Position numbers and translations under genes: made by a program
In this document: positions 5,561-28,855 of the stretch, piece by piece
Layout: every line of letters begins with the position of its first letter
Numbering within the stretch: the stretch's first letter is position 1
Origin: Limnohabitans sp.
GTDB lineage: Bacteria > Pseudomonadota > Gammaproteobacteria > Burkholderiales > Burkholderiaceae_C
Assembly: GCF_023910625.1 (NCBI RefSeq)
Contig: NZ_JAAVVW010000003.1
Span: 1,550,001 to 1,614,000 of the forward strand
Direction: 5' to 3'
Length of the DNA: 64,000 nt
The notes under the pieces: model-generated
The model's input: only the letters and a program-made list of their open reading frames with translations
What the model was told of the DNA's origin: nothing
Database searches by the model: none

Positions 5561-6287
5561 TCAGTCCACAAGGATTTTGCGGTCCCTGATGATTTGGGAA
5601 AAACGACGTGCATCGGCCTTGATGACCGCCCCAAATTCGGCTGGTGACATGGGCGTGGGCTCGGCACCGATGCTTCGAATGATCTCGACAGCACTGGGCA
5701 GCATCAAGGCCCGGTTGATCTCACGGTTCACACGGTCCACGATGGCCGATGGCGTGCCTGCTGGAGCCCAGAAACCATGCGTTGTGCCAGCATCAAAACC
5801 TTTGAGCCCCAACTCGATGAGCGTGGGCGATGAGCTCAGCATAAGTCTTGTAGGGGGCATCGCTGCGCACGACCAAAAACAATTCCAAGCGTGCGCCGGC
5901 CGCCACCGGGATGAGGTCCTTTTCGTGGTCAAAAGGCATCTTGGGTGTGATGTAAGGCACGATGGCTGCACCACTGCCCGAGCTGCACAAAAAAGTGTAA
6001 CCATCGGGTGCACTTTTGGCAGCCAAATCCGAACCGATGATCCCGCCGGCACCGCCCCGATTGTCCACCACGATTTGCTGCCCCAAGGCTTGTGCCACCG
6101 ATGTGGAGACGGCACGGGCCACCAAGTCTGGCGAGCCGCCCACAGGAAAATTCACAATCATGCGAATGGGTTTGGCTGTTGGCCAAGGCGCAGTTTGCGC
6201 CCTGGCTGTGCCAAAGGTCCCAAGCGCAAGGCCTGATAGGGTTGCCAAGCCTAATTGTCGGCGACGAGGGTCATGACGATGGTTCAT
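5561..6287 (-). pseudogene. Bug-family tripartite tricarboxylate receptor, internally deleted and frameshifted
   Basis: The 5' part (from the ATG at 6287) encodes a Tat/Sec-like leader (RRRQLGLATLSGLALGTFG) and the first half of a Bug periplasmic binding protein, with IRMIVNFPVGGSPD, VVDNRGGAGGIIGSDLAAKSAPDGYT and DAPYKTYAELIA. Near 5815-5835 the frame jumps to the C-terminal part (PTLIELGLKGFDAGTTHGF, ending KILVD). About 70-75 codons of the usual ~320 are missing, including the middle ligand-binding lobe. An 8-bp repeat CGATGAGC occurs at 5815-5822 and 5828-5835, at the junction. The gene followed a class II aldolase and a hydroxyacid dehydrogenase, so it probably imported the organic acid those enzymes use. 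It is non-functional as it stands. Confidence 0.85.
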
Positions 6288-6411
6288 ACAAAGCGCTCCG
6301 GATGAAGGAATCAAAAAACTGCCTTAGAAATTACCCGAAAGAATTATGTAAAAAATCAAACATCTCACTACTCGGGAAAACCTTGCCATGTCGCCTTGCC
6401 CATGCAAGCGG

Positions 6412-7428
6412 TCAAACCACCGAATTACACAGGGCAACGCCTTCATTCCAACAGCGCAAGTTATCCAGGAACATCTGACCGACTCGGGTTTCATTGCCAT
6501 CGGAGTGGCCTGCTGCGTGCGGCGTGATCATGACTTGTGGCATGGCCCACAAGGGAGAATCGGATGGCAAGGGTTCGTGCGCAAACACATCCAGAAAAGC
6601 GCCACTCAAGTGGCCGCTTTGCAACGCCGACACCAAAGCGGGTTCGTCCACCACTTCGCCTCGTGCCACATTGATCAAGTGAGCACCTTGGGGCAACACG
6701 GCCAGGGCAGAGGCATTGACCAATTGGCGGGTTTTGGAAGTCAAGGGGCAGGCCAGGATCAACCAGTCGGTTTTGGGCAGCACCTGGGTCCAAGACTCGA
6801 ACGTGACCATCTCAACGCCTTCGCACAACGGGTGGTGCGGTGCGGCCAATTGTTGGCGCACAACCACAACCTGCAGGCCCAAGGCCTGCAGCAAACTGCC
6901 CAGTTTTTGGCCAATAGGTCCCCAACCGACGATGGTCGCGGTTTGCCCCGGCAAGTCGCGGGGCATGCGCGCGCCCATCATTGGTATCCATTGGCGGTTT
7001 TGTTGTTCGGCCCAGAGCAAAGGGAAACGGCGCGCCAACGCCAGCATGCCCGCCAAGGCCACGGTGGCGACCACTTGCGCATTCGCGCCGGATGAGGTGG
7101 TTATCTGGACACCCCTGGCCAACAAATCCAGATAAATCTGACGGTCAGCGCCCGCTGAATGGATGTGCACCCACTGCAGATCTGGCGACTGGCGCAATAG
7201 CGCGTAAATCCGCTGCAAGGCCGGATGGATTTCATGTTTGGTGGAGGTGCCTGTGACCTCTCGCGAGATGAAAGCCACGTCGGCATCCGTGCGTTGTTCG
7301 GCTGTCGCCGCTTCCCAAGACATCAATTCATAAGGGCGCGGCCCCATCCGGGCCGCAAGCGATGCGCCCCAGCGGTCGATGGACTGCTGGGACATCAAGA
7401 TGCGCAGGGGGGCATGCGGATCGCTCAT
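6412..7428 (-). CDS. D-2-hydroxyacid dehydrogenase (NAD-dependent)
   Basis: A 338-residue member of the D-isomer-specific 2-hydroxyacid dehydrogenase family. The Rossmann motif GWGPIGQ lies near residue 170. The catalytic triad is visible as Arg in NVARGE (near 255), Glu in AHEPLPSDS (near 286) and His in TPHAAGH (near 306). It interconverts a 2-hydroxy and a 2-oxo acid with NAD(P)(H); the substrate cannot be read from the sequence. It sits between a class II aldolase gene and a decayed Bug receptor, all on the minus strand, consistent with a small catabolic operon. Confidence 0.9.
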   Translation of the reverse strand: MSDPHAPLRILMSQQSIDRWGASLAARMGPRPYELMSWEAATAEQRTDADVAFISREVTGTSTKHEIHPALQRIYALLRQSPDLQWVHIHSAGADRQIYLDLLARGVQITTSSGANAQVVATVALAGMLALARRFPLLWAEQQNRQWIPMMGARMPRDLPGQTATIVGWGPIGQKLGSLLQALGLQVVVVRQQLAAPHHPLCEGVEMVTFESWTQVLPKTDWLILACPLTSKTRQLVNASALAVLPQGAHLINVARGEVVDEPALVSALQSGHLSGAFLDVFAHEPLPSDSPLWAMPQVMITPHAAGHSDGNETRVGQMFLDNLRCWNEGVALCNSVV

Positions 7429-7479
7429 TCGGCTTTGGCCCCCGAATCGCGCACGATGACATCCCGGTTCATAAATGGC

Positions 7480-8268
7480 TCATGTTTTGTAACTCGGGTC
7501 CATGCGGTCGAGTTTGCGCAACAGGGCTGGCCACTCCATCAAGCCATAGGGCCTGCGCGTGCTGGGCTGGTAGTTGTTCCAGGTTTCCTCCAGCACATCG
7601 GGTGCGACTTTGACGAAAGGCGTGTGGCAGGCCATGGCCGCCAGTTGGGCATGGCACGCCAGCTCCAGGCGGTGCATCCAGTTGAACGCCTCGCCCACAC
7701 TGCGCCCCACGGTGAGGGCGCCATGGTTGCGCAAGATCAGCGCCTCACCCTGCCCCAGGTCTTTGACCAAAGAGGCCTGTTCGGTCAGATCGAGCACCAC
7801 GCCCTGGTAGTCGTGGTAGCCGATTTTCTGGAACCGCATCGCCGTTTGGGTGATGGGCAAAAGACCGCATTCGAGCGAAGACACCGCCATGGAGGCCCAG
7901 CTGTGGGTGTGGATGACGCAGTCCACCTCGGGGCGCGCTTCGTGCAACGCGCTGTGGATCACGTAGCCGGCTTTGTTGATGCCGTAGTTCAATTCGCCAA
8001 AGTCGGGTTTGGACAGGATGTTGCCATTGTGGTCAATTTTGATGAGGCTCGACGCCGTGATCTCTTCGTACATCATGCCGTAGGCGTTGATGAGAAAAGC
8101 ACCTTCTTCGCCGGGGACGCGCGAAGAGATGTGGTTGGCCATCATGTCGGACATGCCATAAATGTCCACCAGTCGGTAGCAAGCGGCCAGGTCCACCCGC
8201 GCTTGCCATTCAGCCTGGGTGCAATGGGAGCGCATCGACTTGATGTTCAAAATTCCGTTAGTGACCAT
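7480..8268 (-). CDS. Class II aldolase/adducin family protein
   Basis: A 262-residue protein of the zinc-dependent class II aldolase/adducin family (fuculose-phosphate-aldolase fold). The metal-binding histidines are in VIHTHSWASM (near residue 120) and LRNHGALTVG (near residue 185), with GMSDMMANHISSRVP near the N-terminus. Some members cleave sugar phosphates, while others act on 2-oxo acids or are decarboxylases; which applies is not readable. The start at 8268 has GAAGGAGA seven bases upstream. A longer frame to 8346 lacks such a site. It is the first gene of the aldolase/dehydrogenase/Bug set. Confidence 0.88.
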   Translation of the reverse strand: MVTNGILNIKSMRSHCTQAEWQARVDLAACYRLVDIYGMSDMMANHISSRVPGEEGAFLINAYGMMYEEITASSLIKIDHNGNILSKPDFGELNYGINKAGYVIHSALHEARPEVDCVIHTHSWASMAVSSLECGLLPITQTAMRFQKIGYHDYQGVVLDLTEQASLVKDLGQGEALILRNHGALTVGRSVGEAFNWMHRLELACHAQLAAMACHTPFVKVAPDVLEETWNNYQPSTRRPYGLMEWPALLRKLDRMDPSYKT

Positions 8269-8638
8269 GATGTCTCCTTCTTGAGCAATCAATTTTGACA
8301 CCTGCGCGCTTGAACAGGGTGTCCCTGAGTTGGCATCTTCATTCAAATGGTGTCCAATGGCTCGGGCGCTGATGAGCGCGAAACATTTGCGCCGTCACGA
8401 GCCAAGTCCCCATTGACAAAGGGCTGCGGCCAAGCAGCATGGGCAATACGGAAGGTGTCAGCTTGATCTCGCCGACCATCAGAGACAGGATCGCTCGTTG
8501 AGCTTGGCGTTCAGCGTGTCACGGCGAACGAAGCCACTGAGCTTGTCGTGGTGGCGTGTGTCAGTGACCCACTGCGCCGCATCCAGCAACAGGCCCTGCC
8601 CCGACACCAGACCGGGATTGACCTCAAAAGATGCAGAA
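8269..8638. other. Intergenic stretch with a possible coding remnant
   Basis: 370 bp between the aldolase start and the ychF stop. The part next to the aldolase holds its ribosome site and presumably its promoter. On the minus strand from about 8640 to 8478 one frame reads like decayed protein-coding sequence (for example LVSGQGLLLDAAQWV and KLSGFVRRDTLNAKL) without a start codon and ending at a stop. I do not recognise the family. No terminator hairpin stands out. Confidence 0.35.
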
Positions 8639-9730
8639 TCAAGGACTGAACAGGAAGTTCATCACATCGCCGTCTTTGACGACGTAGTCCTTGCCTTCGG
8701 CGCGCATCTTGCCGGCGTCTTTGGCACCCTGCTCGCCTTTGAAGGCGATGAAGTCGTCAAATGCGATGGTCTGGGCGCGGATATAGCCTTTTTCGAAATC
8801 GGTGTGGATCACGCCCGCAGCTTGGGGGCCGGTGGCCCCCACTTTAACGGTCCAGGCGCGCACTTCCTTCACCCCCGCTGTGAAATAGGTTTGCAAGCCC
8901 AAGAGCTTGTAGGCCGCGCGGATCAAGCGGTTGAGGCCTGGCTCGTCCTGACCGATTTCCTTCAAGAACTCCAAGCGGTCGGCATCTTCCATCTCGGACA
9001 GCTCGGCTTCGATCTTGGCACAAATGGCCACCACGGGCGCGTTTTGCGCTTGGGCAAAGGCCATGAGACGGTCCAGAAAGGGGTTGTGCTCAAAACCGTC
9101 TTCGGACACGTTGGCCACGAACATGGCGGGCTTGGCGGTGATGAGGAAAAACTGCTTGAGTTGCGCTTGCTCTTCTTTGCCGAAGTCGATGGTGCGCACG
9201 GGCTTGGCGTCATTGAGCGCGGCTTGGCACTTCTCCAGAATTGCCATTTGCTTGACAGCTTCTTTGTCGCCCGAGCGGGCAATTTTGCTCACGCGGTGGA
9301 TGGCTTTTTCGACAGCGGCCAGATCGGCCAGGCACAGCTCGGTCTGGATGACTTCGATGTCGGCAATCGGATCGACCTTGTTGGCGACGTGGATCACGTT
9401 GGGGTCTTCAAAACAACGCACCACGTTGACGATGGCGTCGGTTTCGCGGATGTGGGCCAAGAACTTGTTGCCCAAGCCTTCACCGGTGCTCGCGCCAGCG
9501 ACCAAGCCGGCGATGTCCACAAATTCCACGATCGCTGGCACCACGCGCTCGGGCTGCACGATCTCGGCGAGCTGCGCCAAACGCGTGTCGGGCACTTCGA
9601 CCACGCCGGTGTTGGGCTCGATCGTGCAGAAGGGGTAGTTTTCAGCGGCAATGCCGGCTTTGGTCAGGGCGTTGAAAAGGGTGGATTTGCCAACGTTGGG
9701 CAAACCCACGATGCCGCATTGGAGGCTCAT
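8639..9730 (-). CDS. ychF: Redox-regulated ribosome-binding ATPase YchF
   Basis: A full-length 363-residue YchF/OLA1 protein. The P-loop is GLPNVGKST (near residue 8), with the switch segment [11 protein letters not shown] near residue 68 and NVSEDG in place of the canonical NKxD, consistent with the family's ATP rather than GTP preference. The C-terminal TGS domain ends [13 protein letters not shown]. It binds ribosomes and is linked to translation fidelity and oxidative-stress responses in E. coli. It is monocistronic here and divergent from the ubiH-like gene. The common neighbour pth is not next to it. Confidence 0.97.
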
Positions 9731-9872
9731 GGAGGGCTTTCGGTGAGTCGGGAGACAGCCGGATATTTTACCGGGTCAGGTCCCGTCAAACCTACTCCAG
9801 CAGTCTTCTCGAACTGTCACCCGTTGTGCACGTTACAAAGTCCCGGCGCAAGGGTCGATTTGGGACGCCACC

Positions 9873-9878
9873 TACAAT
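9873..9878 (+). promoter_or_regulatory. -10-like hexamer 6 nt before the ubiH-like start
   Basis: TACAAT followed by GCGAAC and then the ATG at 9885. No Shine-Dalgarno sequence is present in the gap. This suggests a leaderless transcript. The -35 region is not recognisable. Confidence 0.45.
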
Positions 9879-9884
9879 GCGAAC

Positions 9885-11054
9885 ATGGCTCTAAACCCTG
9901 ACATTTGCATTCGTGGCGCCGGCATTGTGGGCCGCACTTTGGCTGTGTTGCTGGCCCGTGAGCAGTTGAATGTGACCTTGGTCGCTACACCTGACAAGCC
10001 CAATATGCCCGATGTGCGCGCCTATTCGCTCAACGGCGCGGCAAAAGCCTTGCTGCAAGATCTTCGCTGCTGGCCAAACGGCCCGGCCGTCACACCGGTC
10101 CACCAGATGCAAATTTGGGGCGACCAAGGGGGTCAATTGGACTTTGTTGCCAGCGAGATGGGCGTAGCCGAACTCAACTGGATGGTGGACGTCCCCGATC
10201 TCGAGGAGCGTTTGAATACGGCTGTGCAATTCCAGACCAAAATTGAAGTGGTCAATGCGCCTGTGGCAGCCCCACTGACGGTGGTGTGCGAAGGCCGCGC
10301 CAGCCAGACACGCACCGAGTTGGGTGTGGGCTTTGATATCACCCATTATGAACAACATGCCCTGGCGACTCGATTGGTCTGTGAGCATGCTCATCAATGT
10401 ATTGCCCGGCAATGGTTTGGTTGGAGCCGCGTACCCGGTCTGGCCCAGCCACAAGCCGAAATTTTGGCCCTGTTGCCCATGGGCGGAGAAGGTGGACGCG
10501 AAGTCGCCTTGGTGTGGTCGGTGCACCCGCTGCGGGCGCAAGAACTGATGGCCATGTCGGCCGAAGACTTTGCGGTGGCGCTGGCCTCGGCTTGCGAACT
10601 CCGCTTAGGGGGCATGCAGATGTCGGCCGAACGGGCAGTTTGGCCACTGCAACTGGCACGCGCCGAACGCTGGATCGGCCCGATACCAGGGACAAGCAAG
10701 CAATCTTTTGCGTTGGCAGGCGATGCGGCCCACAGCTTGCACCCCTTGGCAGGACAAGGCCTGAATGTGGGCTTGGCCGATGTGGCCGAGTTGGTGCAGG
10801 TGATCCGAGCCAAAGAGTTTTGGCGCCCCCTGCACGACATCAAATTGCTGCGCCGTTACGAGCGCGCCCGTCAGGCCGATGTGCAAGCCATGGGCCTGGT
10901 CACCGATGGTCTGCAGCGCCTGTTTGCCCAGCCCGGTCCGGTCTGGCAAAACCTGCGCAACTGGGGCATGCGCGGCTTTGACCGCAGCGGCCCCCTCAAG
11001 CACTGGATGACACAACGCGCGATGGGCCAAAGTGCCGATCGCGCTGACCGCTGA
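9885..11054 (+). CDS. UbiH/UbiF-family FAD-dependent hydroxylase (ubiquinone biosynthesis)
   Basis: A 389-residue flavoprotein monooxygenase. The N-terminal dinucleotide-binding motif reads IRGAGIVGRTLAVLLA (residues 8-23), and the second FAD motif GDAAHSLHPLAGQGLNVGL is near residue 280, a signature of the UbiH/COQ6 group. The family hydroxylates the aromatic ring of ubiquinone precursors using NAD(P)H and O2. Which ring position this member uses cannot be told, so no symbol is given. It is followed 45 bp later by dsbC on the same strand. Confidence 0.85.
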   Translation: MALNPDICIRGAGIVGRTLAVLLAREQLNVTLVATPDKPNMPDVRAYSLNGAAKALLQDLRCWPNGPAVTPVHQMQIWGDQGGQLDFVASEMGVAELNWMVDVPDLEERLNTAVQFQTKIEVVNAPVAAPLTVVCEGRASQTRTELGVGFDITHYEQHALATRLVCEHAHQCIARQWFGWSRVPGLAQPQAEILALLPMGGEGGREVALVWSVHPLRAQELMAMSAEDFAVALASACELRLGGMQMSAERAVWPLQLARAERWIGPIPGTSKQSFALAGDAAHSLHPLAGQGLNVGLADVAELVQVIRAKEFWRPLHDIKLLRRYERARQADVQAMGLVTDGLQRLFAQPGPVWQNLRNWGMRGFDRSGPLKHWMTQRAMGQSADRADR

Positions 11055-11099
11055 AGTGCCCGTGGCACACAGCCCCTTCCTTTTTTGAAAGCCCGTTCG

Positions 11100-11816
11100 A
11101 TGAAGTTTTCACCTCCCAAGTTGGCCCTGATGTTGGTCGCCGCTGCGCTGTCATGGGGCAGTGTGATGGCCCAGGAAGCCACGATTCGCAAAAACCTGAA
11201 CGAGCGCCTGCCCAATTTGCCCAAGATCGACGAGGTCAGCAAAACGCCGATGAATGGCCTGTTTGAAATCCGCATGGGCAATGAGGTGATGTACAGCGAC
11301 GCCGATGGCAACTTCCTGATCCAAGGCGCCTTGATCGACGTGCGGCAAAGGCGCAACCTGACCGAAGAGCGCGTGGACAAACTCACGGCCATCGGTTTTG
11401 ACCAACTGCCCCTCAAATCGGCCTTCACCCAAGTGCGCGGCAATGGCAAGCGCAAGCTGGCGGTTTTTGCAGACCCCAATTGCGGCTTTTGCAAACGGTT
11501 CGAAAAAGACCTGCAAAAACTGGACAACGTGACCATCTATCATTTTCTTTACCCCATCTTGGGCGAAGACTCGCGGACCAAATCCAAAAACGTCTGGTGC
11601 GCCAAAGACAAGGCCAAGGTCTGGAACGACTGGATGATCTGGGGCACGTTGCCTCCGAACGCCAACTGCGACACCTCGGCCATTGACACCATCGTGGCCT
11701 TTGGCCAAAAGAACCGCATCACCGGCACGCCTTTGTTGCTGTTTGCCGATGGCACTCGGGTTCCTGGTGCGGTGCCCATGGCTCAAGTCGAAAAAATCCT
11801 GGCAGACCTGAAATGA
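11100..11816 (+). CDS. dsbC: DsbC-family periplasmic disulfide isomerase
   Basis: A 238-residue secreted protein. It has a signal peptide (KFSPPKLALMLVAAALSWGSVMAQ), an N-terminal dimerisation domain to about residue 85, and a thioredoxin fold with the active site CGFC (near residue 127). The second cysteine pair (NVWCAKD, NANCDTS) and the cis-Pro loop ITGTPLLLFADG are present. It reshuffles wrong disulfides in the periplasm and is normally kept reduced by DsbD. The ATG at 11100 gives a clean signal peptide; a TTG five codons earlier is possible. The stop overlaps the next start. Confidence 0.93.
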   Translation: MKFSPPKLALMLVAAALSWGSVMAQEATIRKNLNERLPNLPKIDEVSKTPMNGLFEIRMGNEVMYSDADGNFLIQGALIDVRQRRNLTEERVDKLTAIGFDQLPLKSAFTQVRGNGKRKLAVFADPNCGFCKRFEKDLQKLDNVTIYHFLYPILGEDSRTKSKNVWCAKDKAKVWNDWMIWGTLPPNANCDTSAIDTIVAFGQKNRITGTPLLLFADGTRVPGAVPMAQVEKILADLK

Positions 11817-12268
11817 ACCTCTCGCCCTTGGAAGATCCAACTTGGCGCTTGGCACGCAGAATGGGCTATGCCGGACTGATTCCCTTCGTTTTTCTGGCCT
11901 CATGTTTGTGGTTGGTCGGCCCCGACCTGCACCCCTATGTGGCCCTGTCCATGCAAGGTTATGGCGCTGTGATCGTGTCGTTTTTAGGCGGCATCCATTG
12001 GGGGGTGGGCTTTCGCAACGCCTTGATCATGCCGAACGCACCCCGCATTCATTTCACCTGGGGCGTAGCCCCCTCGCTGCTGGCATGGGTGGCCGTGATG
12101 ATGCCCGCATTTGCCGGTCTTCCGCTGCTCGGTTTTGTGCTGATTGGCTGCTACCTGATGGACCGGCGCACCTTTCCTGCCGCAGGCCTGGCACCTTGGC
12201 TGCCGATGCGTTTGCAGCTGACTCTCGTGGCCTCGCTCAGTTGCTTTTTGGCTGCGGGCGCGACTTGA
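11813..12268 (+). CDS. DUF3429 domain-containing membrane protein
   Basis: A 151-residue inner-membrane protein with about four or five hydrophobic helices (residues 20-40, 48-66, 85-103, 105-120 and 130-148). Its FLGGIHWGVGF and WGVAPSLLAWVAVMMP segments are typical of DUF3429. Function is unknown. Its ATG overlaps the dsbC stop (ATGA), so it is translated in the ubiH-like/dsbC unit, but this says little about its role. Confidence 0.85.
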   Translation: MNLSPLEDPTWRLARRMGYAGLIPFVFLASCLWLVGPDLHPYVALSMQGYGAVIVSFLGGIHWGVGFRNALIMPNAPRIHFTWGVAPSLLAWVAVMMPAFAGLPLLGFVLIGCYLMDRRTFPAAGLAPWLPMRLQLTLVASLSCFLAAGAT

Positions 12269-12336
12269 AGCCCGCCAACAACCCATGCCTTGGGCTCTGA
12301 TGCCCTGCAAGGTCTATTTGCCTCAACCACTCCAAC

Positions 12337-14097
12337 ATGACCGCCATCCACTACACCGTTGAAGCTGCCAACCTGCATGCGCATTTGTTTCAGGTCACGC
12401 TGACCATCCCCGCACCGGCAGCGGAGCAAACGGTGTCGCTGCCGGTGTGGATTCCGGGCAGTTACCTGGTGCGCGAGTTCTCAAAGAACCTGCAAAACCT
12501 GTCAGCCCAACAAGGCCGCAAAAAAGTGGTGCTGGTGCAGCAGGACAAATGCACTTGGCGCATCGCTTGCCATGAAGGCCATCCGCTGGTGTTGCGCTAC
12601 CAGGTCTATGCTTTTGACAACTCGGTCCGCACGGCCTGGCTCGACAGCCAGCGGGGCTTCTTCAACGGCACCAGTCTTTACCTGCGTGTGCACGGACAAG
12701 AAAACCTGAAACACCAGCTTCAACTGCCTGCGGTCAAAGGCCAGCCGAACTGGCAAGCGGCCACAGGCCTGAGCCCGATCAAAACTGACAAACGCGGCTT
12801 TGGTCTGTATGGGGCCGAGAGCTACGACGAGCTGGTGGACTGCCCTGTGGAATTGGGGGCCTTCTGGTCAGGCCGTTTCATGGCCTGCGGCATACCACAT
12901 CGCTTTGTGGTGGTCGGTGCACTGCCCTCGTTCGACGGTGATCGCCTGTTGGCCGACACGCAAAAAATCTGCGAAACGGCCATCCGCTTCTGGCATGGCA
13001 AGGGCAAACAAGCTGGCGCGAGAGCGCCGCACAAAAACTACCTGTTCATGCTCAACGCCGTGCACGAGGGTTATGGCGGACTGGAGCACCGCAACAGCAC
13101 CGCCCTGATCTGCAACCGCTCCGACTTGCCACGCCAAACCAGCCCCCATCGCAACGAGGGTTACACCACGCTGTTGGGCCTGATCAGCCACGAGTACTTT
13201 CACACCTGGAACGTCAAGCAACTGCGACCCGACGCTTTTGCACGTTACGACTACACGCAGGAAAACTACACGCAGTTGCTGTGGTTTTTTGAGGGCTTCA
13301 CCAGTTATTACGATGACATCCTGTTGCGCCGCGCAGGGCTGATTGATGACAACACTTACATCAAGCTGCTGGGCAAAGCCATCGCCCAAGTGCAGCAAAC
13401 ACCAGGCCGCCATCTGCAGACCGTGGCGCAGGCCAGCTTTGACGCCTGGGTCAAGTACTACCGCCAAGACGAAAACACAGCCAACGCCACCGTGAGTTAC
13501 TACACCAAGGGTTCACTGGTGGCGCTGTGCCTGGACTTGTCATTGCGCCAGGAAAGCCAGACGCTGGACCAGGTGATGCGAGGCCTTTGGAGGCGATGCC
13601 AAGGTAGACCGATGTACGAACAAGACTTGTTGGACGAACTGCAAGCCCTCACGGGACGCAGTTGGCAAGCCGAAATTCAGGCCTGGGTGCACAGCACGCA
13701 AGACCTGCCCCTGCGTGAATGGTTGACTGCGCAATATATACGGATTGAGGCCGATACAACCACGATGGCCCAACGCTTGGGTTTGCGTGTGAGCGAAACT
13801 GGAGGCTTTGTCCAAGTCAAGACTGTGCTGCGCGGCAGCGCGGCCGAAACCGCTGGACTGGCTGCGGGGGATGAATGGCTGGGCCTGGAAGTCGGTGCCA
13901 AGGGCCTGGGCGGCAGCTGGAGATTGAACAAACTGGATGATTTGCCTGCCCTGCTGGGACGCGAACGCCAATTGATCGCGCTGATCTCTCGCGACAAAAG
14001 TCTGCTGCGCCTGCCCCTCACGGTGCCAGAACAAGCGAGCTTGTGGCAACTGAGTGTGCCTTCGGATCGCGCTAACTCGGGCTGGCCTGCCGTTTGA
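12337..14097 (+). CDS. M61-family glycyl aminopeptidase with PDZ domain
   Basis: A 586-residue M61 peptidase. The N-terminal beta-rich domain contains LPVWIPGSYLVREF (near residue 35). The gluzincin active site is HEYFHTWNVKQLRP (HExxH, near residue 285), with the third zinc ligand in WFFEGFTSYYDD about 30 residues later. A C-terminal PDZ domain (about residues 475-570) includes RGSAAETAGLAAGDEWLGLE. Family members remove N-terminal glycine or alanine. No signal peptide is evident, so it is probably cytosolic. It follows DUF3429 after 68 bp and ends facing the Smr gene. Confidence 0.92.
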   Translation: MTAIHYTVEAANLHAHLFQVTLTIPAPAAEQTVSLPVWIPGSYLVREFSKNLQNLSAQQGRKKVVLVQQDKCTWRIACHEGHPLVLRYQVYAFDNSVRTAWLDSQRGFFNGTSLYLRVHGQENLKHQLQLPAVKGQPNWQAATGLSPIKTDKRGFGLYGAESYDELVDCPVELGAFWSGRFMACGIPHRFVVVGALPSFDGDRLLADTQKICETAIRFWHGKGKQAGARAPHKNYLFMLNAVHEGYGGLEHRNSTALICNRSDLPRQTSPHRNEGYTTLLGLISHEYFHTWNVKQLRPDAFARYDYTQENYTQLLWFFEGFTSYYDDILLRRAGLIDDNTYIKLLGKAIAQVQQTPGRHLQTVAQASFDAWVKYYRQDENTANATVSYYTKGSLVALCLDLSLRQESQTLDQVMRGLWRRCQGRPMYEQDLLDELQALTGRSWQAEIQAWVHSTQDLPLREWLTAQYIRIEADTTTMAQRLGLRVSETGGFVQVKTVLRGSAAETAGLAAGDEWLGLEVGAKGLGGSWRLNKLDDLPALLGRERQLIALISRDKSLLRLPLTVPEQASLWQLSVPSDRANSGWPAV

Positions 14098-14114
14098 GCG
14101 CTAAGGCGCGTTGC

Positions 14115-14753
14115 TCAAGCGCCTGATTTGAGCAGCACCACCAAAGCACCGGCACCACCTTCAGAAGGTTTGGCCTGCACAAAGGCCAAGACCTGGTTTT
14201 TTTGTACCAGCCAGTCGTGCACCCTGGACTTGAGCACCGGCGTCTTGCCCGGTGAACCCAAGCCCTTGCCATGCACAACGCGCAAACATCGCAAACCCTG
14301 ACGATGCGCCAGGCGAATGAACTCGGCCAGGGCAACACGGGCTTCGTCGCTGCGCAGACCATGCAGATCAATTTCGCGCTGAATCGACCAGTCACCCTTG
14401 CGCAGCTTGTGAATCACATCGCGACCAATGCCGGGTCGGCGAAAACTCAAAGCATCGTCGGTATCGAGCAAGGTGCTGGCATCAAATTCATCGCTCAAGC
14501 AATCGCGCAGCACCGCCTGATTGTCTTTTTGGCGCTGGTGAGCAATCGGCGCAGGCGCGGGCCGCACCAAGTTGACCTGATCCTTGACAGGCAAACGTTG
14601 AACCTGGCCCACCGCACGGACGAACAAATTGCTTTCAAGCTCGCGTTGCCGCGCAGCAAAGGCTTGGGCAGCCGCAACCGCCTGAGCTTGTGACTGGGCT
14701 TCGGCCAATTTTTGGCGAACCTTTTTCAGATCTTGCAGCGCGTTGATTTTCAC
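14115..14753 (-). CDS. Smr (MutS-related) domain protein
   Basis: A 212-residue protein with an Ala/Gln-rich, probably coiled N-terminus and a C-terminal Smr domain from about residue 125: IDLHGLRSDEARVAL, RCLRVVHGKGLGSP and the closing GAGALVVLLK. The LDLHG- and HGKG-type motifs are the nuclease core of the family. E. coli SmrB cleaves mRNA at collided ribosomes, and this gene is the size of that subgroup. Translation starts at a GTG preceded by GGAGTT. Confidence 0.88.
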   Translation of the reverse strand: MKINALQDLKKVRQKLAEAQSQAQAVAAAQAFAARQRELESNLFVRAVGQVQRLPVKDQVNLVRPAPAPIAHQRQKDNQAVLRDCLSDEFDASTLLDTDDALSFRRPGIGRDVIHKLRKGDWSIQREIDLHGLRSDEARVALAEFIRLAHRQGLRCLRVVHGKGLGSPGKTPVLKSRVHDWLVQKNQVLAFVQAKPSEGGAGALVVLLKSGA

Positions 14754-20070: not shown

Positions 20071-20832
20071 ATGAACTTGACGGGTGGATGGCATTGGCAT
20101 TGGCGCGCATGGCGGTCACAAGCTCGCTGGGCAGGCGCGTCTGCGCAAATAGCCGACTGGTTGATGGCACAAACCATGCCACGAAAACAACTCGTCTTGC
20201 TGGGGGCCAGCGCAGGCTGGATGCTGCCCACCTGCTGGTTGGCGCAGTTTGAAGAAATTCACGCCTGGGACATCGACCCATTGGCTTCACCCTTGTTTCG
20301 CTGGCGGCATGGTCGTCATTTACAAAGTCAGGGTATTCGCCTGCATCTCAACACCGCCGATGGCCTTGACCACTTGAACGAACGCACCCGGGAAATGCCC
20401 GGAGCTTTTTTCTGGTTTGACAACATGCTGGGGCAATTACGATTCACCAACGAACCACTGGATGCGTTGAGTCGCCGTTTGCAGGCGTTGCAAAAAAAAT
20501 TACAACATGTGGCTTGGGGCAGCGTACACGACCGCATGTCGGGTCGCACGACACTGGGCACCAGCTTACCTTTGTCACGTCTTGGCCTGTCCGGTGTGGC
20601 CATGGAAACGTCGGAAGGACAAGCCTGGTTACAGCAGATGGGGGCCATCAGCCCCTGGCTGGATCACCTGACCGAACATGTTTTACCCCCGGGTACCCCG
20701 GTGCAACACACAGCTTGGCCCTTCAAGCCAGGCTATGCCCACTGGCTTGAAATGGGCTGGCACCCCAAAGCCTCGTCCTCAAGAGCAGACGCTGAATGGT
20801 GTCCTGTCCATCCAGGGTTCGATGCGCGATGA
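20071..20832 (+). CDS. Uncharacterised protein, possible methyltransferase-like fold
   Basis: A 253-residue protein that I do not recognise as a named family. It is rich in Trp, His and Arg at the N-terminus (GGWHWHWRAWRSQARW). Residues 40-75 (QLVLLGASAGWMLP, then EIHAWDIDPLAS) look like a Rossmann beta-strand/glycine loop followed by an acidic strand end, as in class I SAM-dependent methyltransferases. FFWFDNMLGQLRF near residue 115 would fit the motif IV strand. No catalytic motif is diagnostic. No signal peptide or membrane helix. It stands alone between intergenic stretches. Confidence 0.65.
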   Translation: MNLTGGWHWHWRAWRSQARWAGASAQIADWLMAQTMPRKQLVLLGASAGWMLPTCWLAQFEEIHAWDIDPLASPLFRWRHGRHLQSQGIRLHLNTADGLDHLNERTREMPGAFFWFDNMLGQLRFTNEPLDALSRRLQALQKKLQHVAWGSVHDRMSGRTTLGTSLPLSRLGLSGVAMETSEGQAWLQQMGAISPWLDHLTEHVLPPGTPVQHTAWPFKPGYAHWLEMGWHPKASSSRADAEWCPVHPGFDAR

Positions 20833-21993: not shown

Positions 21994-22080
21994 ATGAACC
22001 GCTGCACTCTGGCCCCTCGCGGGCGTACTTTGCTTTGCCTTGACTTGATCACCTCCATGAATTCCGTGGAGACCACATGA
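21994..22080 (+). CDS. Small ORF (28 aa) overlapping the miaB start
   Basis: ATG at 21994, 28 codons, stop at 22078-22080. The stop overlaps the miaB ATG in ATGA, which would couple the two translationally. The peptide starts [16 protein letters not shown], is Leu/Arg/Thr rich and has no recognised family. No strong Shine-Dalgarno sequence is visible. It could be a leader peptide controlling miaB or a chance ORF. Confidence 0.35.
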
Positions 22081-23414
22081 ACAAGAAGGTCTTCATCAAA
22101 ACCTTTGGCTGCCAGATGAACGAGTACGACTCGGACAAGATGGCCGATGTGCTGGGCGCAGCGCAGGGCTATGAGCCCACGCAGGACGTGGACGAGGCCG
22201 ATCTGATCTTGTTCAACACCTGCTCGGTGCGCGAGAAGGCGCAAGAAAAAGTCTTCAGCGATCTAGGCCGGGTGCAGCACCTCAAGGCCAAGGGCGTGCA
22301 GATTGGCGTGGGCGGCTGCGTGGCCAGCCAGGAAGGTGCCGAGATCATCAAGCGCGCCCCCTATGTGGACGTGGTGTTTGGCCCGCAGACCCTGCACCGC
22401 CTGCCCGAGTTGCTGAACGAGCGCGAGCGCAAGCAGCGCCCGCAGGTGGACATCAGCTTCCCCGAGATTGAAAAGTTCGACCACTTGCCCCCAGCCAAGG
22501 TGGACGGCGCCACCGCCTTTGTGTCGATCATGGAAGGCTGCAGCAAATACTGCAGCTACTGCGTGGTGCCTTATACCCGGGGCGAAGAGGTGTCGCGCCC
22601 GTTTGACGATGTGCTGGTCGAAATCGCCGGTCTGGCCGCGCAGGGCGTGAAAGAAATCACCCTGCTGGGCCAGAACGTGAACGCCTACCGGGGCAAGATG
22701 GGTGGCACCGCTGACATCGCCGACTTTGCGCTGCTGCTGGAGTACGTGGCCGACATGCCGGGCATCGAGCGCATCCGTTACGTGACCAGCCACCCGAACG
22801 AGTTCACGCAGCGCCTGATCGACGCTTACGAAAAGATCCCCAAACTGGTGAGCCACTTGCACCTGCCGGTGCAGCACGGCTCGGACCGCATCTTAATGGC
22901 CATGAAGCGCGGTTACACCTCCATGGAATACAAGAGCACGATCCGCAAGCTGCGGGCGATTCGCCCCGACATGTCGCTCAGCAGCGATTTCATCGTGGGC
23001 TTCCCCGGCGAGACCGAGGACGACTTCAACAAGATGATGAAGCTCATCACCGATGTGGGCTTTGACACGAGCTTCAGCTTCATCTTCAGCCCCCGCCCCG
23101 GCACGCCTGCAGCCAACCTGCACGACGACACGCCGCACGCCGAAAAACTGCGCCGCCTGCACCACCTGCAAGCGACCATCGAAGAGAACGTGCAGCTCAT
23201 CGGCGAGAGCCGTGTGGGCACAGTACAGCGCATTCTGGTGGAGCGCCCCTCACGCAAGGACGCGACCGAGCTGGCGGGTCGCACCGAGTGCAACCGGGTG
23301 GTCAACTTCCCCGGCGGCCCGAACATGGACCGCCTGATCGGTCAGATGGCGGATGTGCGCATCACCCAAGGTTTGTCCCACTCGCTGCGCGGCGAGTTGG
23401 TCATTCGCGATTGA
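22077..23414 (+). CDS. miaB: tRNA-2-methylthio-N6-dimethylallyladenosine synthase
   Basis: A 445-residue radical-SAM methylthiotransferase that adds the 2-methylthio group to i6A37 of tRNAs reading UNN codons. The N-terminal UPF0004 domain carries the cysteines of the auxiliary cluster ([29 protein letters not shown]). The radical-SAM motif CSKYCSYC is near residue 155 (CxxxCxxC), and a TRAM domain lies at the C-terminus ([14 protein letters not shown] to LRGELVIRD). The ATG at 22077 is preceded by GTGGAGACC. Confidence 0.97.
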
Positions 23415-23546: not shown

Positions 23547-23948
23547 TCAGGATTCGCGCCCGACTTCGCGGATGTAGCGGCGGTAGTCACCATGTGGAAT
23601 GGGCGTGCAACCATCGGTCGGGCGGTTGTACACATAGGTCTGCACCTGCTGGCCTTGCAGCGGGCCGCTGAGCACCGTCACCACCTCCCGCCAATAGTGT
23701 GATTCGGCGCGGTCACCGGGCACCACACCTTCCACCCCATCCAGACGGGTCAGGTGCGCGTCATCCGCTTCATAGACTTCGCCGGTGACTTGCCCTTCCC
23801 CCGGCAATAAGCCCGGGTAGCTGCCCAAGTCGACCAAGCGGCCCTGCACTTGGGCGGGGCCCATGAAGCGGGCACCGTGCATTTCGGCCTCCAGTCGCAG
23901 GCCTGGCATGAGGGTTCCGTAGATAAAGATAATGTGTTTCATGGGCAT
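23547..23948 (-). CDS. Gamma-glutamylcyclotransferase (AIG2/GGACT-like) family protein
   Basis: A 133-residue protein with the family fold: the YGTLMPG substrate-loop motif at residues 10-16, GRLVDLGSYPGLLPG in the middle, and LDGVEGVVPG containing the expected catalytic glutamate, followed by YWREVV. Family members cyclise gamma-glutamyl-amino acids or gamma-glutamyl-amines to 5-oxoproline, releasing the free amine. It is transcribed divergently from the Rieske/GS-like/ferredoxin operon across 186 bp. That context, next to a ligase that probably makes gamma-glutamyl amides, favours a gamma-glutamylamine substrate. An alternative start two codons downstream is possible. Confidence 0.85.
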   Translation of the reverse strand: MPMKHIIFIYGTLMPGLRLEAEMHGARFMGPAQVQGRLVDLGSYPGLLPGEGQVTGEVYEADDAHLTRLDGVEGVVPGDRAESHYWREVVTVLSGPLQGQQVQTYVYNRPTDGCTPIPHGDYRRYIREVGRES

Positions 23949-24134
23949 GATTTTGCGTCAATTCGGTCCCTATGGTCAGCCCAAAATTGACACGCATCAA
24001 GCCCCACCCACCGTGTCGCCTGTAGGCAGGACCCAGCCTCGCAGCCGTTTAAACTGATCGGTAAGGAATATGCGCGGCCCCACACCAAAGGGTACACGCC
24101 AACGGCAGATACACGGCGCAAGCCAGAGGCCTCC

Positions 24135-25526
24135 ATGAAAGCTGAACAGAACGAACTCATCACCCGCATTGGCCCAGGCACGCCGTGCGGTGCGGTGATG
24201 CGCCACTATTGGCAGCCCGTCGCCCTGGTGGACGAATTCAACCCCGCGCTCGACCCGCGGATGGCGATTCGCCCCGTGAAAGCCGTGCGCATTCTGGGCC
24301 AAGACCTGGTGTTGTTTCGCAACGCGCAGGGCGACTATGGTTTGCTGGACCGTGACTGCCCGCACCGTGGGGCCGACCTGGCCTTTGGCCGCAACGAAGG
24401 CGATGGCCTGCGTTGCCCTTTTCATGGCTGGAAGTTTGACGTCACGGGCCAGTGCATCGAAACACCTGCCGAGCCCTCCGGCAGCACGCTGTGCAAGCGT
24501 GTGCGCCAGCGCAGCTATCCGCTGATCGAGCGCAGCGGCATTGTGTTTGGCTGGTTCGGCCCCGAAGGCCAGACACCGCCGCCGCTCCCTGGTATTGATG
24601 CTTTCAGCGCCCCGGCCACCCACACCTTCGCCTTCAAAGGGCTGTGGCATTGCAACTGGTTGCAGGCGTTTGAGGTGGGCATTGACCCGGCACACGCGTC
24701 GTACCTGCACCGCTTTTTCAATGATGAGTCGCTCGAAGGCAGCTATGGTCGCCAATTCCGTGGTGCGAGCGCGGGCGATGTGCAAGGCGAGCGCTGGCCC
24801 ATGACGCGGGTGATGCGCGAACTGGACCAGCCCGAGATTTCATTCGAGCCCACCGATGCCGGCCTGCGCCTGACGGCCCTGCGCCCGATCAACGAGGCGC
24901 TCACGCATGTGCGGGTGACGAATGCGCTGTTCCCGCACACCTTTGTGATTCCGCTGTCGGAGACCATGACCATCACGCAGATGCATGTGCCGGTGGACGA
25001 CACCCACACCTATTGGTATTCGGTGTTCACCAGCTTTGCCGGGCCGGTGGACAAAGAGGCCATGCGCAACCAGCGCCTGCCCTCGGTCACCTTGCCCGAC
25101 TACATCCCCAAAGCGGGCAAGCACAACCACTGGGGCTTCAACCCCGAAGAACAAGTCTCGCGCACCTACTTGGGCATGGGCGAAGACGACATCAACGTGC
25201 ACGACCAGTGGGCCTGCGAGAGCATGGGCGCGATACAAGACCGCACCCGCGAGCACCTGGGCACCAGCGACAAGGTCATCATGGCCAACCGCCGCATCTT
25301 GCTCAAAGCCATCGAGACGGTGCAGGCCGGGGGCTCGCCGCCCGGCTTTGCGCAGGGCGCCGTGGCCGGCCAGCGCATCGGGCCGGACACTGTGGACGGC
25401 ATCGCTCCCAGCGGGCAATGGCCGCAGTGGTGGCGCGAGGCCTGCGCTGCCAAACGCAGCGGTGCGCCGTGGGATGCCGCCCTGCCGGGCCATGCGCCCA
25501 CCCCAGCCGACTCGAGCGCAGCATGA
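24135..25526 (+). CDS. Rieske non-haem iron oxygenase, alpha subunit (phthalate-dioxygenase-like)
   Basis: A 463-residue oxygenase. The Rieske [2Fe-2S] ligands are CPHRGADL and CPFHGWKF (near residues 75 and 95). The mononuclear iron site is DPAHASYLHRF near residue 185, giving D-x2-H-x4-H, with the third carboxylate further on. The opening GTPCGAVMRHYWQPVALVDE is typical of one-component-alpha enzymes related to phthalate dioxygenase and vanillate demethylase. It uses O2 and electrons from a ferredoxin to oxidise an aromatic or related substrate, not predictable here. Its stop overlaps the start of the glutamine-synthetase-like gene, so the two are translationally coupled. No reductase gene is present in the cluster. 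Confidence 0.92.
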   Translation: MKAEQNELITRIGPGTPCGAVMRHYWQPVALVDEFNPALDPRMAIRPVKAVRILGQDLVLFRNAQGDYGLLDRDCPHRGADLAFGRNEGDGLRCPFHGWKFDVTGQCIETPAEPSGSTLCKRVRQRSYPLIERSGIVFGWFGPEGQTPPPLPGIDAFSAPATHTFAFKGLWHCNWLQAFEVGIDPAHASYLHRFFNDESLEGSYGRQFRGASAGDVQGERWPMTRVMRELDQPEISFEPTDAGLRLTALRPINEALTHVRVTNALFPHTFVIPLSETMTITQMHVPVDDTHTYWYSVFTSFAGPVDKEAMRNQRLPSVTLPDYIPKAGKHNHWGFNPEEQVSRTYLGMGEDDINVHDQWACESMGAIQDRTREHLGTSDKVIMANRRILLKAIETVQAGGSPPGFAQGAVAGQRIGPDTVDGIAPSGQWPQWWREACAAKRSGAPWDAALPGHAPTPADSSAA

Positions 25527-27004
25527 GCTTCGCTGAACGCTGCGGCCTACACAGCCGCAAACGCCAGGCGGCTTGTGAGCAATTGGTGCGGCAGGTGGAG
25601 GCCTCTGGTATCGACCTGATCCGCTTGGGCTGGTGCGACCTGCATGGCGTGGTGCGCGGCAAGACCCTCGTGGCCTCGCAACTGCGCCAAGCGCTGGCCA
25701 ACGGCATCGGCATGGTCAGCACCTTGCTGCTCAAAGACAGTTCGGACCGCACCGCCTTCAAAGTGTTCGAGTCGGGCATTGAAGACACCCTGCCTGGCTT
25801 TGCCGGGGCCAGCAATTTCACCCTCATGCCCGACCCGGCCAGCTGGCAGGTGCTGCCTTGGACCGACAAGACCGGTTGGCTCCAGTGCCAGCCCTACTTG
25901 GCCGACGGGCGCATCGTGCCGCTCGATTCGCGCCATGTGCTGCAGCAAGCCGTGCAGCGCCTGGCCGAACGCGGCTGGCAGATGCGCTGCGGGCTCGAAG
26001 TCGAATTCCACATCTACCGCCTCAAAGACCCGCTGCACGGGCCAGACCTGGACCCGGATCGCGCCGCATGGCCCGGTCCCGCGCCCGAAGTCAGCCTGAT
26101 CCACCCTGGCTACAACCTGCTGACCGAAGGCTGGATGGACCGGGCCGAAGAGCCGCTGCGCATCGTGCAGCGCACCGCGCAGGCGCTGGGCCTGCCGCTG
26201 ATCTCGCTCGAAATCGAACTCGGCCCCAGCCAGGTCGAAGCGGTGTTTGATGTGAGCGATGCGCTCACGGCCGCCGACCAGATGGTGCTGTTTCGCAACG
26301 CCACACGCCAAGCCCTGCGCCGCGCCGGTTACCACGCCACCTTCATGTGCCGACCGCCGTTTGAACACATCATGTCGAGCGGCTGGCACCTTCACCAATC
26401 GGTTTGTGAATTGGCCACAGGGCGCAACGTGTTCATGCGCGAAGATCTGGCCCCCGGCAGCAGTTCACGCGAAGCCCGGCAAGTGCTGAGCGATGCGGGC
26501 GCGCTCTGGCTGGCCGGACTGCTGGCGCACGCCCCGGCGCTCACCGCCTTGTGCACCAGCACCACCAATGGCTATGGGCGCTTTCGGCCCAACGCGATGG
26601 CACCGCAGTCGATTTTGTGGGGCCGTGACAACCGGGGCGCGATGCTGCGCGTCATCGGCGCGCCGGGTGACAGCGCCACCCGCATTGAAAACCGCCTGGG
26701 CGAGCCTGCGGCCAACCCTTATCTCTACATGGCCTCGCAAATTCACGCTGGGCTTGACGGGGCGGACGCACAGCTGCAAGCGCCGCCAGCCACCGAAACA
26801 CCTTATGCCCCAGGGGCTGTATCCATCCCAACGTCTTTGGCCGATGCGGTGCAGGCGTTGCAAGCCGATAGCGCTTTGAGCCAGGCCATGGGGCAGCCCT
26901 TGGTGGATTACTACAGCACCATCAAACTGGCCGAGCACCGGCGCTTGACCCAGGCCGAAGATGCGACGGAGTTTCACAAGCGCGAATACTTCGGCCGAAT
27001 TTAA
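25523..27004 (+). CDS. Glutamine-synthetase-like gamma-glutamylamide ligase
   Basis: A 493-residue type I glutamine synthetase homologue. The beta-grasp N-domain contains RLGWCDLHGVVRGKTL. The catalytic domain has LEVEFHIYR, EIELGPSQVEAVF (metal/ATP glutamates), SGWHLHQSV, NGYGRFRPN and ENRLGEPAANPYLYMASQ. True GlnA hallmarks such as the adenylylation loop are not evident, and the genetic setting is not nitrogen assimilation. Related ligases (AtdA1/TdnQ with aniline, IpuC with isopropylamine, PuuA with putrescine) ligate glutamate to an amine at the expense of ATP. Because it overlaps the Rieske gene by 4 bp, I infer that it activates the amine substrate of that oxygenase. Confidence 0.88.
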   Translation: MSFAERCGLHSRKRQAACEQLVRQVEASGIDLIRLGWCDLHGVVRGKTLVASQLRQALANGIGMVSTLLLKDSSDRTAFKVFESGIEDTLPGFAGASNFTLMPDPASWQVLPWTDKTGWLQCQPYLADGRIVPLDSRHVLQQAVQRLAERGWQMRCGLEVEFHIYRLKDPLHGPDLDPDRAAWPGPAPEVSLIHPGYNLLTEGWMDRAEEPLRIVQRTAQALGLPLISLEIELGPSQVEAVFDVSDALTAADQMVLFRNATRQALRRAGYHATFMCRPPFEHIMSSGWHLHQSVCELATGRNVFMREDLAPGSSSREARQVLSDAGALWLAGLLAHAPALTALCTSTTNGYGRFRPNAMAPQSILWGRDNRGAMLRVIGAPGDSATRIENRLGEPAANPYLYMASQIHAGLDGADAQLQAPPATETPYAPGAVSIPTSLADAVQALQADSALSQAMGQPLVDYYSTIKLAEHRRLTQAEDATEFHKREYFGRI

Positions 27005-27045
27005 CAACCCATTGAAAGCCCGCGTTTGAGCGCGCTGCATTGAAG

Positions 27046-27375
27046 ATGATCACGATCCACCTGCAAGCCCACGACCCCGCACAAGCCCCGATCACACTGC
27101 AAGCCCATTCTGGGCAAAGCCTGATGCAAGCCGCTGTCGACACCAATGTGTCAGGTATCCAGGCCGATTGCGGCGGGCTGTTGACCTGCGCCACCTGCCA
27201 TGTGGTGGTGCATGAAGATTGGGTGAAGCAGCTGCCGCCGATGGGTAGCGATGAAGACGGCATGTTGACCTTCACCGCCCAAGCGCGTGAGCCGGGCAGT
27301 CGCCTGTCGTGCCAGATCGTGCTGACCCCAGAGCTGGACGGTCTGCAGGTCACGCTGCCCGAGAGCCAGTATTGA
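27046..27375 (+). CDS. [2Fe-2S] ferredoxin (adrenodoxin-like)
   Basis: A 109-residue plant/adrenodoxin-type ferredoxin. Cluster ligands are in DCGGLLTCATCH and LSCQIV, the C-x5-C-x2-C-xn-C pattern. It probably donates electrons to the Rieske oxygenase two genes upstream. A separate NAD(P)H-ferredoxin reductase would have to be encoded elsewhere. The ATG at 27046 is preferred to an upstream TTG (27040). It lies 41 bp after the ligase on the same strand. Confidence 0.88.
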   Translation: MITIHLQAHDPAQAPITLQAHSGQSLMQAAVDTNVSGIQADCGGLLTCATCHVVVHEDWVKQLPPMGSDEDGMLTFTAQAREPGSRLSCQIVLTPELDGLQVTLPESQY

Positions 27376-27469: not shown

Positions 27470-28855
27470 TCAGCGCGGCATACCAGGAAAGCCACCGCCG
27501 CCGCCCATCATGCCTTTCATGGCCCCCATGCGCTTCATCATTTTCATCATGCCGCCGCCGGACATTTTTTTCATCATGTCCTGCATCTGCTCGAACTCCT
27601 TGAGCATGCGATTGACGTCTTGCACCTGAACGCCCGCGCCCGCTGCGATGCGGCGCTTGCGCGTGGCCTTGATCAATTCAGGCTTGCTGCGCTCTTTGGG
27701 CGTCATGCTGTGAATGATGCCCTGCTTGCGGCCGATGTCTTTTTCGACCTTGTCCATGTCCATGGACGCTGCCTTGGCGGTCATCTGGCTGGGCAACTTG
27801 TCCATCAGGCTTGACAGCCCGCCCATTTGCTTCATCTGCTGGATCTGCGCCAAAAAGTCGTTCAGATCAAAGCCGCCACCGCTCTTGACCTTGGCGGCCA
27901 ATTTTTGCGCGGCTTCCATGTCCACACCTGCAGTGACCTGCTCGACCAGGGCCACGATGTCGCCCATGCCCAGCACCCGGCCCGCGTGGCGCTCGGCATC
28001 GAACACTTCCAGACCATCGATTTTTTCACTGGTACCGGCAAACTTGATCGGCACGCCCGTGATCTGGCGCACCGACAGGGCCGCGCCACCGCGTGAGTCG
28101 CCGTCCAGTTTTGTGAGCACAATGCCCGTCAAAGGCAAAGCCTCGCTGAACGCCTTGGCGGTATTGGCCGCGTCCTGGCCTTGCATGGCATCCACCACGA
28201 ACAGGGTTTCAACAGGCTTCAATTCGGCGTGCAAGGCCTTGATTTCGGCCATCAGGGCTTCGTCAATCGCCAAGCGACCCGCGGTGTCGACGAGCAACAC
28301 GTCAAAGAAATGTTTGCGGGCGTAGTCGATGGCGGCACGCGCGATGTCGATGGGCTTTTGGTCGGGCGAGCTGGGAAACCATTCGGCACCAGCTTGCGCG
28401 GTCACCGTCTTGAGCTGCTCAATCGCCGCAGGGCGGTACACGTCACCCGAGACGGTGAGCACTTTCTTTTTGCGCTTTTCGATCAGGTGTTTGGCCAGCT
28501 TGGCGGTGGTGGTGGTTTTACCGGCCCCTTGCAAACCGGCCATCAAGATCACAGCAGGCGGCTGCGCCGCCAGGTTGATGTCCGACACGCCCTCGCCCAT
28601 GGTGGCCGCCAACTCGCGGTTGACCACACCCACCAAGGCCTGTCCGGGCTTCAAAGAACCCATGACTTCTTGGCCCAAGGCTTTTTCTTTCACCCGGGCA
28701 ATGAAATCGCGCACCACAGGCAAAGCCACGTCGGCTTCGAGCAAGGCCATGCGCACCTCGCGCAGCATGTCGGCCACGTTCGACTCGGTGATGCGGGCCT
28801 GCCCGCTGAGGGTCTTGACGAGGCGTGAGAGTTTGTCGGTCAGGGCGGAGGCCAT
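27470..28855 (-). CDS. ffh: Signal recognition particle protein Ffh (SRP54)
   Basis: A full-length 461-residue Ffh. The N domain is followed by the G domain with P-loop GLQGAGKTTT (near residue 108), DVYRPAAIEQL, DTAGRLAIDE, TKLDGDSRGGAAL and GTSEKIDGLEVFD. The methionine-rich M domain from about residue 330 ends in a GGMMKMMKRMGAMKGMMGG tail. Together with 4.5S RNA it targets nascent membrane proteins to FtsY. It is divergent from ypjD and convergent with the ferredoxin gene. Confidence 0.97.
   Translation of the reverse strand: MASALTDKLSRLVKTLSGQARITESNVADMLREVRMALLEADVALPVVRDFIARVKEKALGQEVMGSLKPGQALVGVVNRELAATMGEGVSDINLAAQPPAVILMAGLQGAGKTTTTAKLAKHLIEKRKKKVLTVSGDVYRPAAIEQLKTVTAQAGAEWFPSSPDQKPIDIARAAIDYARKHFFDVLLVDTAGRLAIDEALMAEIKALHAELKPVETLFVVDAMQGQDAANTAKAFSEALPLTGIVLTKLDGDSRGGAALSVRQITGVPIKFAGTSEKIDGLEVFDAERHAGRVLGMGDIVALVEQVTAGVDMEAAQKLAAKVKSGGGFDLNDFLAQIQQMKQMGGLSSLMDKLPSQMTAKAASMDMDKVEKDIGRKQGIIHSMTPKERSKPELIKATRKRRIAAGAGVQVQDVNRMLKEFEQMQDMMKKMSGGGMMKMMKRMGAMKGMMGGGGGFPGMPR

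Follow-up and report, generated by a model that had tools for sequence, protein, structure and literature searches.

A glutamine-synthetase-like gene that overlaps the gene of a Rieske oxygenase raises two questions: whether the two enzymes act together on an amine, and which of the surrounding genes belong with them. We examined such a locus in a Limnohabitans genome (Comamonadaceae, 3.17-Mb assembly; GCF_023910625.1), within a window of 64,000 nucleotides (contig NZ_JAAVVW010000003.1, positions 1,550,001 to 1,614,000), to which all coordinates refer unless another contig or locus is named. The original prediction had joined four genes into a single route, in which an amine is glutamylated, oxidised and finally freed through cyclisation by a gamma-glutamylcyclotransferase-like (GGACT) enzyme.

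Gene content of the locus

All four genes are open frames lying where they had been placed, with the predicted overlap and spacing. A sadA-type Rieske oxygenase alpha subunit of 463 aa and of the phthalate/LigXa type (24135-25526, + strand; PF00355 and PF19301) shares 4 bp (ATGA) with the next gene, which encodes a sadB-type glutamine-synthetase-like (GS-like) ligase of 493 aa, an arylamine gamma-glutamyl synthetase by assignment (25523-27004, + strand; Gln-synt_C PF00120, 233 bits). The third gene encodes a [2Fe-2S] ferredoxin of 109 aa (27046-27375, + strand; Fer2 PF00111), the proposed electron donor of the oxygenase. The GGACT-family gene (23547-23948, - strand; PF06094, 82 bits against a cut-off of 22.8) lies 186 bp from the Rieske gene. 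Two housekeeping genes flank the whole, miaB upstream (22077-23414, + strand; TIGR01574, 575 bits against a cut-off of 355) and ffh (SRP54) downstream (27470-28855, - strand; PF00448, PF02978 and PF02881), and a ccsB-like gene and ampD also lie downstream.

The oxygenase carries a LigXa_C domain and has neither a small subunit nor a reductase among its immediate neighbours, which bears out the earlier description of it as phthalate-type and alpha only; family scans of the interval between miaB and ffh found no beta subunit, amidotransferase-like gene or reductase. Its Rieske ligands (C75, H77, C94, H97) and its mononuclear-iron motif (D184-x2-H187-x4-H192) do not vary across 12 aligned orthologues. 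The ferredoxin shows the pattern Cys42-x5-Cys48-x2-Cys51-x37-Cys89, with the spacing of adrenodoxin and putidaredoxin. Elsewhere in the window, a 253-aa frame between asparaginase and DUF2889 genes (20071-20832, + strand) gave no Pfam or NCBIfam match.

A conserved operon of the sad type

The Rieske-GS pairing is well above chance. Among 80 named loci, which were gathered via the oxygenase, the ligase gene directly follows the SadA-type oxygenase gene in every one, with a median gap of 33 bases, and the ferredoxin gene comes next after sadB in 54 of the 71 loci whose sequence extends far enough to tell. Close relatives of the ligase were found in 18 of 300 Burkholderiales genomes. Seventeen neighbourhoods with a ligase identity of at least about 40% were read, and in 16 of them the oxygenase directly adjoins the ligase. 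This conserved association of ligase, Rieske oxygenase and ferredoxin indicates a joint function. The conserved four-gene neighbourhood that had been foreseen therefore holds for three of its members (80/80 and 54/71) and fails for the GGACT gene, which is missing from all 54 sad operons that do not lie beside miaB.

The loci belong to Limnohabitans, Hydrogenophaga, Polaromonas, Ramlibacter, Caenimonas, Rubrivivax, Ideonella and other genera, and SadA identity to the window protein is 92-98% in other Limnohabitans and 60-80% in other Burkholderiales. Within Limnohabitans, sadA or a fragment of it occurs in 51 of 90 species genomes. Two of the orthologues (G412:C4:115698-117074 and G476:C115:5219-6601) each contain one internal TGA, perhaps through decay or sequencing error. 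Plasmids of alpha- and betaproteobacteria hold more distant relatives, and these usually come with a FAD-dependent ferredoxin reductase. One sad operon (L144, RFXW01000010.1) lies on a contig assigned to the alphaproteobacterium Candidatus Fonsibacter lacus; its nearest relatives are betaproteobacterial, and the contig is perhaps mis-binned.

The gene order Rieske alpha, GS-like ligase and [2Fe-2S] ferredoxin on one strand is that of the sadABD type. In Hydrogenophaga intermedia PBC the sad operon comprises a dioxygenase (sadA), a glutamine synthetase (sadB) and a ferredoxin, is credited with the conversion of 4-aminobenzenesulfonate to 4-sulfocatechol (4-aminobenzenesulfonate 3,4-dioxygenase), and is kept across the Hydrogenophaga genomes examined (PMC5632844). 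We tie the window operon to the PBC operon via Hydrogenophaga orthologues and this published description: the Hydrogenophaga loci L078, L088, L090 and L025 (PBL-H3) hold orthologues in sad gene order, and the window proteins share 72-78% (SadA) and 61-68% (SadB) identity with the named Hydrogenophaga loci. Gan et al. (2012) reportedly cloned sadABD and found a separate reductase, sadC; without sadB, activity is said to have been abolished in E. coli.

The ligase itself is a relative of amine gamma-glutamyl ligases and not of GlnA, as had been supposed. Its best solved relative is 8wwu (E 1e-99), the 1-naphthylamine gamma-glutamyl synthetase NpaA1 (PMC11335346). In a maximum-likelihood tree it falls within a 31-row clade holding NpaA1 and the Dca/TdnQ-type ligases (support 96/97), outside of which lie E. 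coli GlnA and the genome's own GlnA; PuuA and the genome's second GS have long branches and an unsure placement, with PuuA outside the arylamine clade. The metal ligands E159, E161, E232, E239, H289 and E389 and the nucleotide-site residues are kept, and the Asp50 and Glu327 of GlnA are replaced by Glu (E83) and Met (M359). Taken together, these data make it likely that the segment 24135-27375 is a chromosomal sadABD-type operon for a gamma-glutamylation-dependent aromatic-amine dioxygenase.

Substrate and proposed mechanism

The amine tunnel of NpaA1 is lined by F75, and the F75A exchange almost abolishes its activity on aniline (PMC11335346). The corresponding residue, located between subunits, is Lys71 in the window ligase and is followed by Arg76; the codons of this K71-D-x3-R76 segment (25733-25750, + strand) would encode an acid-substrate signature. 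The alignment block is ungapped and an independent alignment to 8wwu agrees with it. This lysine is shared by every one of 77 chromosomal sad-type ligases and of eight aligned plasmid sad-like ligases; in the four ligases of the aniline/naphthylamine type the position is held by Phe or Val. From the replacement of the tunnel Phe by Lys we infer a preference for acidic arylamines, and the alignment suggests an anionic amine substrate such as an aminobenzoate or an aminobenzenesulfonate. Since all sad-type ligases share this lysine in place of phenylalanine, the substitution amounts to a concrete substrate prediction.

The reaction sequence that we propose begins with the SadB-like ligase. In an ATP-dependent reaction this enzyme would couple glutamate, through its gamma-carboxyl, to the amino group of an aromatic amine that probably also carries an acid group and is of the aminobenzoate or aminobenzenesulfonate class. 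The ferredoxin would be reduced by an NAD(P)H-dependent FAD reductase whose gene lies elsewhere and would pass electrons to the Rieske oxygenase, and the latter would dihydroxylate the ring at the amide-bearing carbon and the neighbouring carbon. The unstable product would then lose its glutamylated nitrogen as glutamine and yield a catechol, so that a separate amide-releasing enzyme would be unnecessary. In the aniline system as published, the action of the dioxygenase on gamma-glutamylanilide gives catechol directly, and NpaA1A3A4A5 converts 1-naphthylamine to a diol without the amidotransferase-like (GAT-like) NpaA2 (PMC11335346). The original prediction was mistaken in having the aniline-system hydrolase free the product; that enzyme hydrolyses gamma-glutamylanilide in excess, a toxic compound, back to aniline (PMC11335346).

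As for the reductase, the best homologue in the window genome has 33% identity and lies in a P450/GS cluster. The genome holds a second gamma-glutamylation cluster (L178, C3:397000-416900, at 5996-14135 of that locus), which consists of a GATase, a cytochrome P450, a GS-like ligase, a ferredoxin reductase, a ferredoxin, an amino-acid permease and a PuuC-like aldehyde dehydrogenase, and whose GS is present in 34 of 90 Limnohabitans genomes.

A narrower version of this explanation, which we put forward tentatively, is that 4-aminobenzoate is converted to protocatechuate and that the latter undergoes 4,5-cleavage. In the window genome TIGR02792 and PRK13366 score above cut-off and mark genes for protocatechuate 4,5-dioxygenase, and a product such as protocatechuate could feed this pathway. 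The genome has no intradiol dioxygenase, and the published 4-sulfocatechol route (pcaH2G2) is therefore missing. Further indications come from plasmids: two sad-like loci, on Methylobacterium and Caballeronia plasmids, lie near genes for a nitroreductase and for PnbB (4-hydroxylaminobenzoate lyase, PF16155; L045 12111-13392, L052 4666-5354 and 14429-14983), which suggests 4-nitrobenzoate/4-aminobenzoate catabolism, and a third has pcaGH, pcaC and pcaD nearby (L048). These neighbours favour 4-aminobenzoate, but the ligases of these plasmid loci are relatives at about 43-48% identity, and a search for PnbB in Limnohabitans gave no match, with control searches equally silent.

The neighbours in Comamonadaceae point elsewhere. 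The commonest catabolic ones there are a fumarylacetoacetate-type (FAA-type) hydrolase, gentisate 1,2-dioxygenase and 3-hydroxybenzoate 6-monooxygenase. Gentisate-type neighbours were seen in Polaromonas, Ramlibacter and Caenimonas; seven loci (L097, L098, L103, L114, L115, L116 and L122) carry gentisate-pathway genes downstream of sad, most of them with all three of the genes just named and a TRAP transporter, and in two others (L033 and L039) the 5' end of sadA overlaps a gentisate-dioxygenase-like gene. Such neighbours favour another acid. Since the protocatechuate and gentisate signals conflict, the class of acidic arylamines is a likelier answer than any single compound. The spread of sad within Limnohabitans makes the question of the natural substrate testable.

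The GGACT gene

The product of the fourth gene is a plain member of the GGACT/YtfP family (PF06094), in which the YGTL motif (Y10-G-T-L13) is kept and E73 aligns with the DxxE glutamate of 1vkb. At the level of the neighbourhood, 44 Limnohabitans genomes possess both this gene and sad, and in 42 of them the two are divergent neighbours; the gene is also present at 10 of the 12 sad operons beside miaB. It also occurs in 44 of 51 sadA-bearing against 19 of 39 other Limnohabitans genomes, a correlation (Fisher p 1.7e-4) that ignores relatedness, would follow from common inheritance of one locus within clades and is not counted toward function.

The genomes without sad reveal where the gene belongs. 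In sad-less Limnohabitans that possess it, miaB adjoins the GGACT gene in 16 of 16 loci read, and in the 15 loci whose contig continues ffh runs in the direction of the GGACT gene at a distance of about 16-32 bases; one further sad-less genome (G234) has the same miaB/GGACT/ffh order with a wider gap, and in another genus (L146) ffh, GGACT and miaB stand together without sad. Conversely, the interval between miaB and ffh holds sadAB but no GGACT in one genome (G412), and in another (G475) sad is present and GGACT was not found in the genome. Because the gene is kept at this place in sad-less genomes and is absent from all 54 sad loci elsewhere, it is a resident of the miaB-ffh locus, co-directional with ffh in the window as well. 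Its neighbourhood with sad is real, yet it is a bystander outside the sad unit, and these loci speak against its membership in the operon or in the pathway, as originally predicted.

A related side observation concerns two Limnohabitans genomes, G464 (L199/L202) and G467 (L203), in which a GGACT homologue is the first gene, on the same strand, of a GAT-P450-GS-ferredoxin-ALDH cluster. This arrangement was seen in only 2 of the 34 Limnohabitans genomes with that GS, and the window genome has the GAT-P450-GS cluster without it, but on its account GGACT may have a general link to gamma-glutamylation.

It could be supposed that the Limnohabitans GGACT was recruited as a cyclising safety valve for surplus gamma-glutamyl arylamide, the job done by AtdA2 in the aniline system. 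We regard this as improbable; if true, the independently placed GGACT homologue that heads the GAT-P450-GS cluster in two relatives would count as another instance of such recruitment. The full four-gene route, in which GGACT takes over from the amidotransferase-like hydrolase and releases, as 5-oxoproline, either the amine or gamma-glutamyl amide in excess, appears a shade less probable still. It would agree with the divergent adjacency, the correlation within the genus, the homologues that head the two P450 clusters and the conserved family residues; however, it leaves unexplained the sad operons away from miaB, the sad-less genomes and the two genomes with sad and no GGACT beside it, and the release step that it supplies is superfluous to the chemistry (PMC11335346).

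Other readings of the oxygenase and the ligase

An aniline-dioxygenase type (AtdA/TdnQTA1A2B) acting on neutral anilines would accord with the position of the ligase in the same larger clade. It is nevertheless very improbable, because the beta subunit, the amidotransferase-like gene and the reductase are all missing alongside, the oxygenase is of the phthalate/LigXa type, and K71 stands in place of the tunnel phenylalanine; the defining features of such an operon are thus lacking at the window locus.

There is a negligible chance that the GS-like protein is a glutamine synthetase of the ordinary or nitrogen-regulatory kind and lies next to the oxygenase by accident, given that, for all its Gln-synt_C domain and the generic product names in public records, it scores 188 bits with the NCBIfam GlnA model (cut-off 429), is invariably paired, falls in the arylamine clade, has lost D50 and E327, and coexists with a true GlnA encoded elsewhere in the genome (C3:17889).

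Comparison with known systems

Among the known systems, PuuA and IpuC also gamma-glutamylate amines with a GS fold, but they act on aliphatic amines and have no Rieske partner. AtdA1-A5, TdnQTA1A2B and Dca resemble the window operon in that gamma-glutamylation precedes ring dihydroxylation; their operons have an alpha-beta oxygenase, an amidotransferase-like gene and a reductase, whereas the window operon is without these. The npa cluster of Pseudomonas sp. JS3066 likewise couples a GS-like arylamine ligase, NpaA1, with 35% identity to that of the window, to a Rieske dioxygenase. It differs in its two-subunit oxygenase and its amidotransferase-like gene, and the tunnel of NpaA1 is hydrophobic (F75, W235) where the window ligase has K71 and L233.

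Novosphingobium resinovorum SA1, which is known to degrade sulfanilate, also has a sad-like Rieske-GS pair on its plasmid pSA3 (L049), where the pair is accompanied by a maleylacetate reductase, a ferredoxin and a FAD reductase.

The sad operon of strain PBC agrees with the window operon in gene content, gene order and family (Comamonadaceae). Its reductase is said to be encoded away from the operon (Gan et al. 2012), as we infer for the window operon. The latter differs from the PBC type in sitting between GGACT/miaB and ffh, while many Hydrogenophaga sad operons are flanked by GntR regulator, hydrolase and TRAP-transporter genes that do not flank it here, and, unlike in the published sad route, the genome offers no intradiol dioxygenase for 4-sulfocatechol. 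The phthalate-type, alpha-only assembly, which the original prediction took to be new, had thus already been described as the sad operon (PMC5632844); what is added here is the removal of GGACT by locus evidence, the signature at Lys71 and the distribution of the operon among freshwater Limnohabitans. Oxidation of amines by sad-type enzymes, which is known from a degrader of a dye chemical, would accordingly be an ordinary chromosomal trait of these freshwater bacteria.
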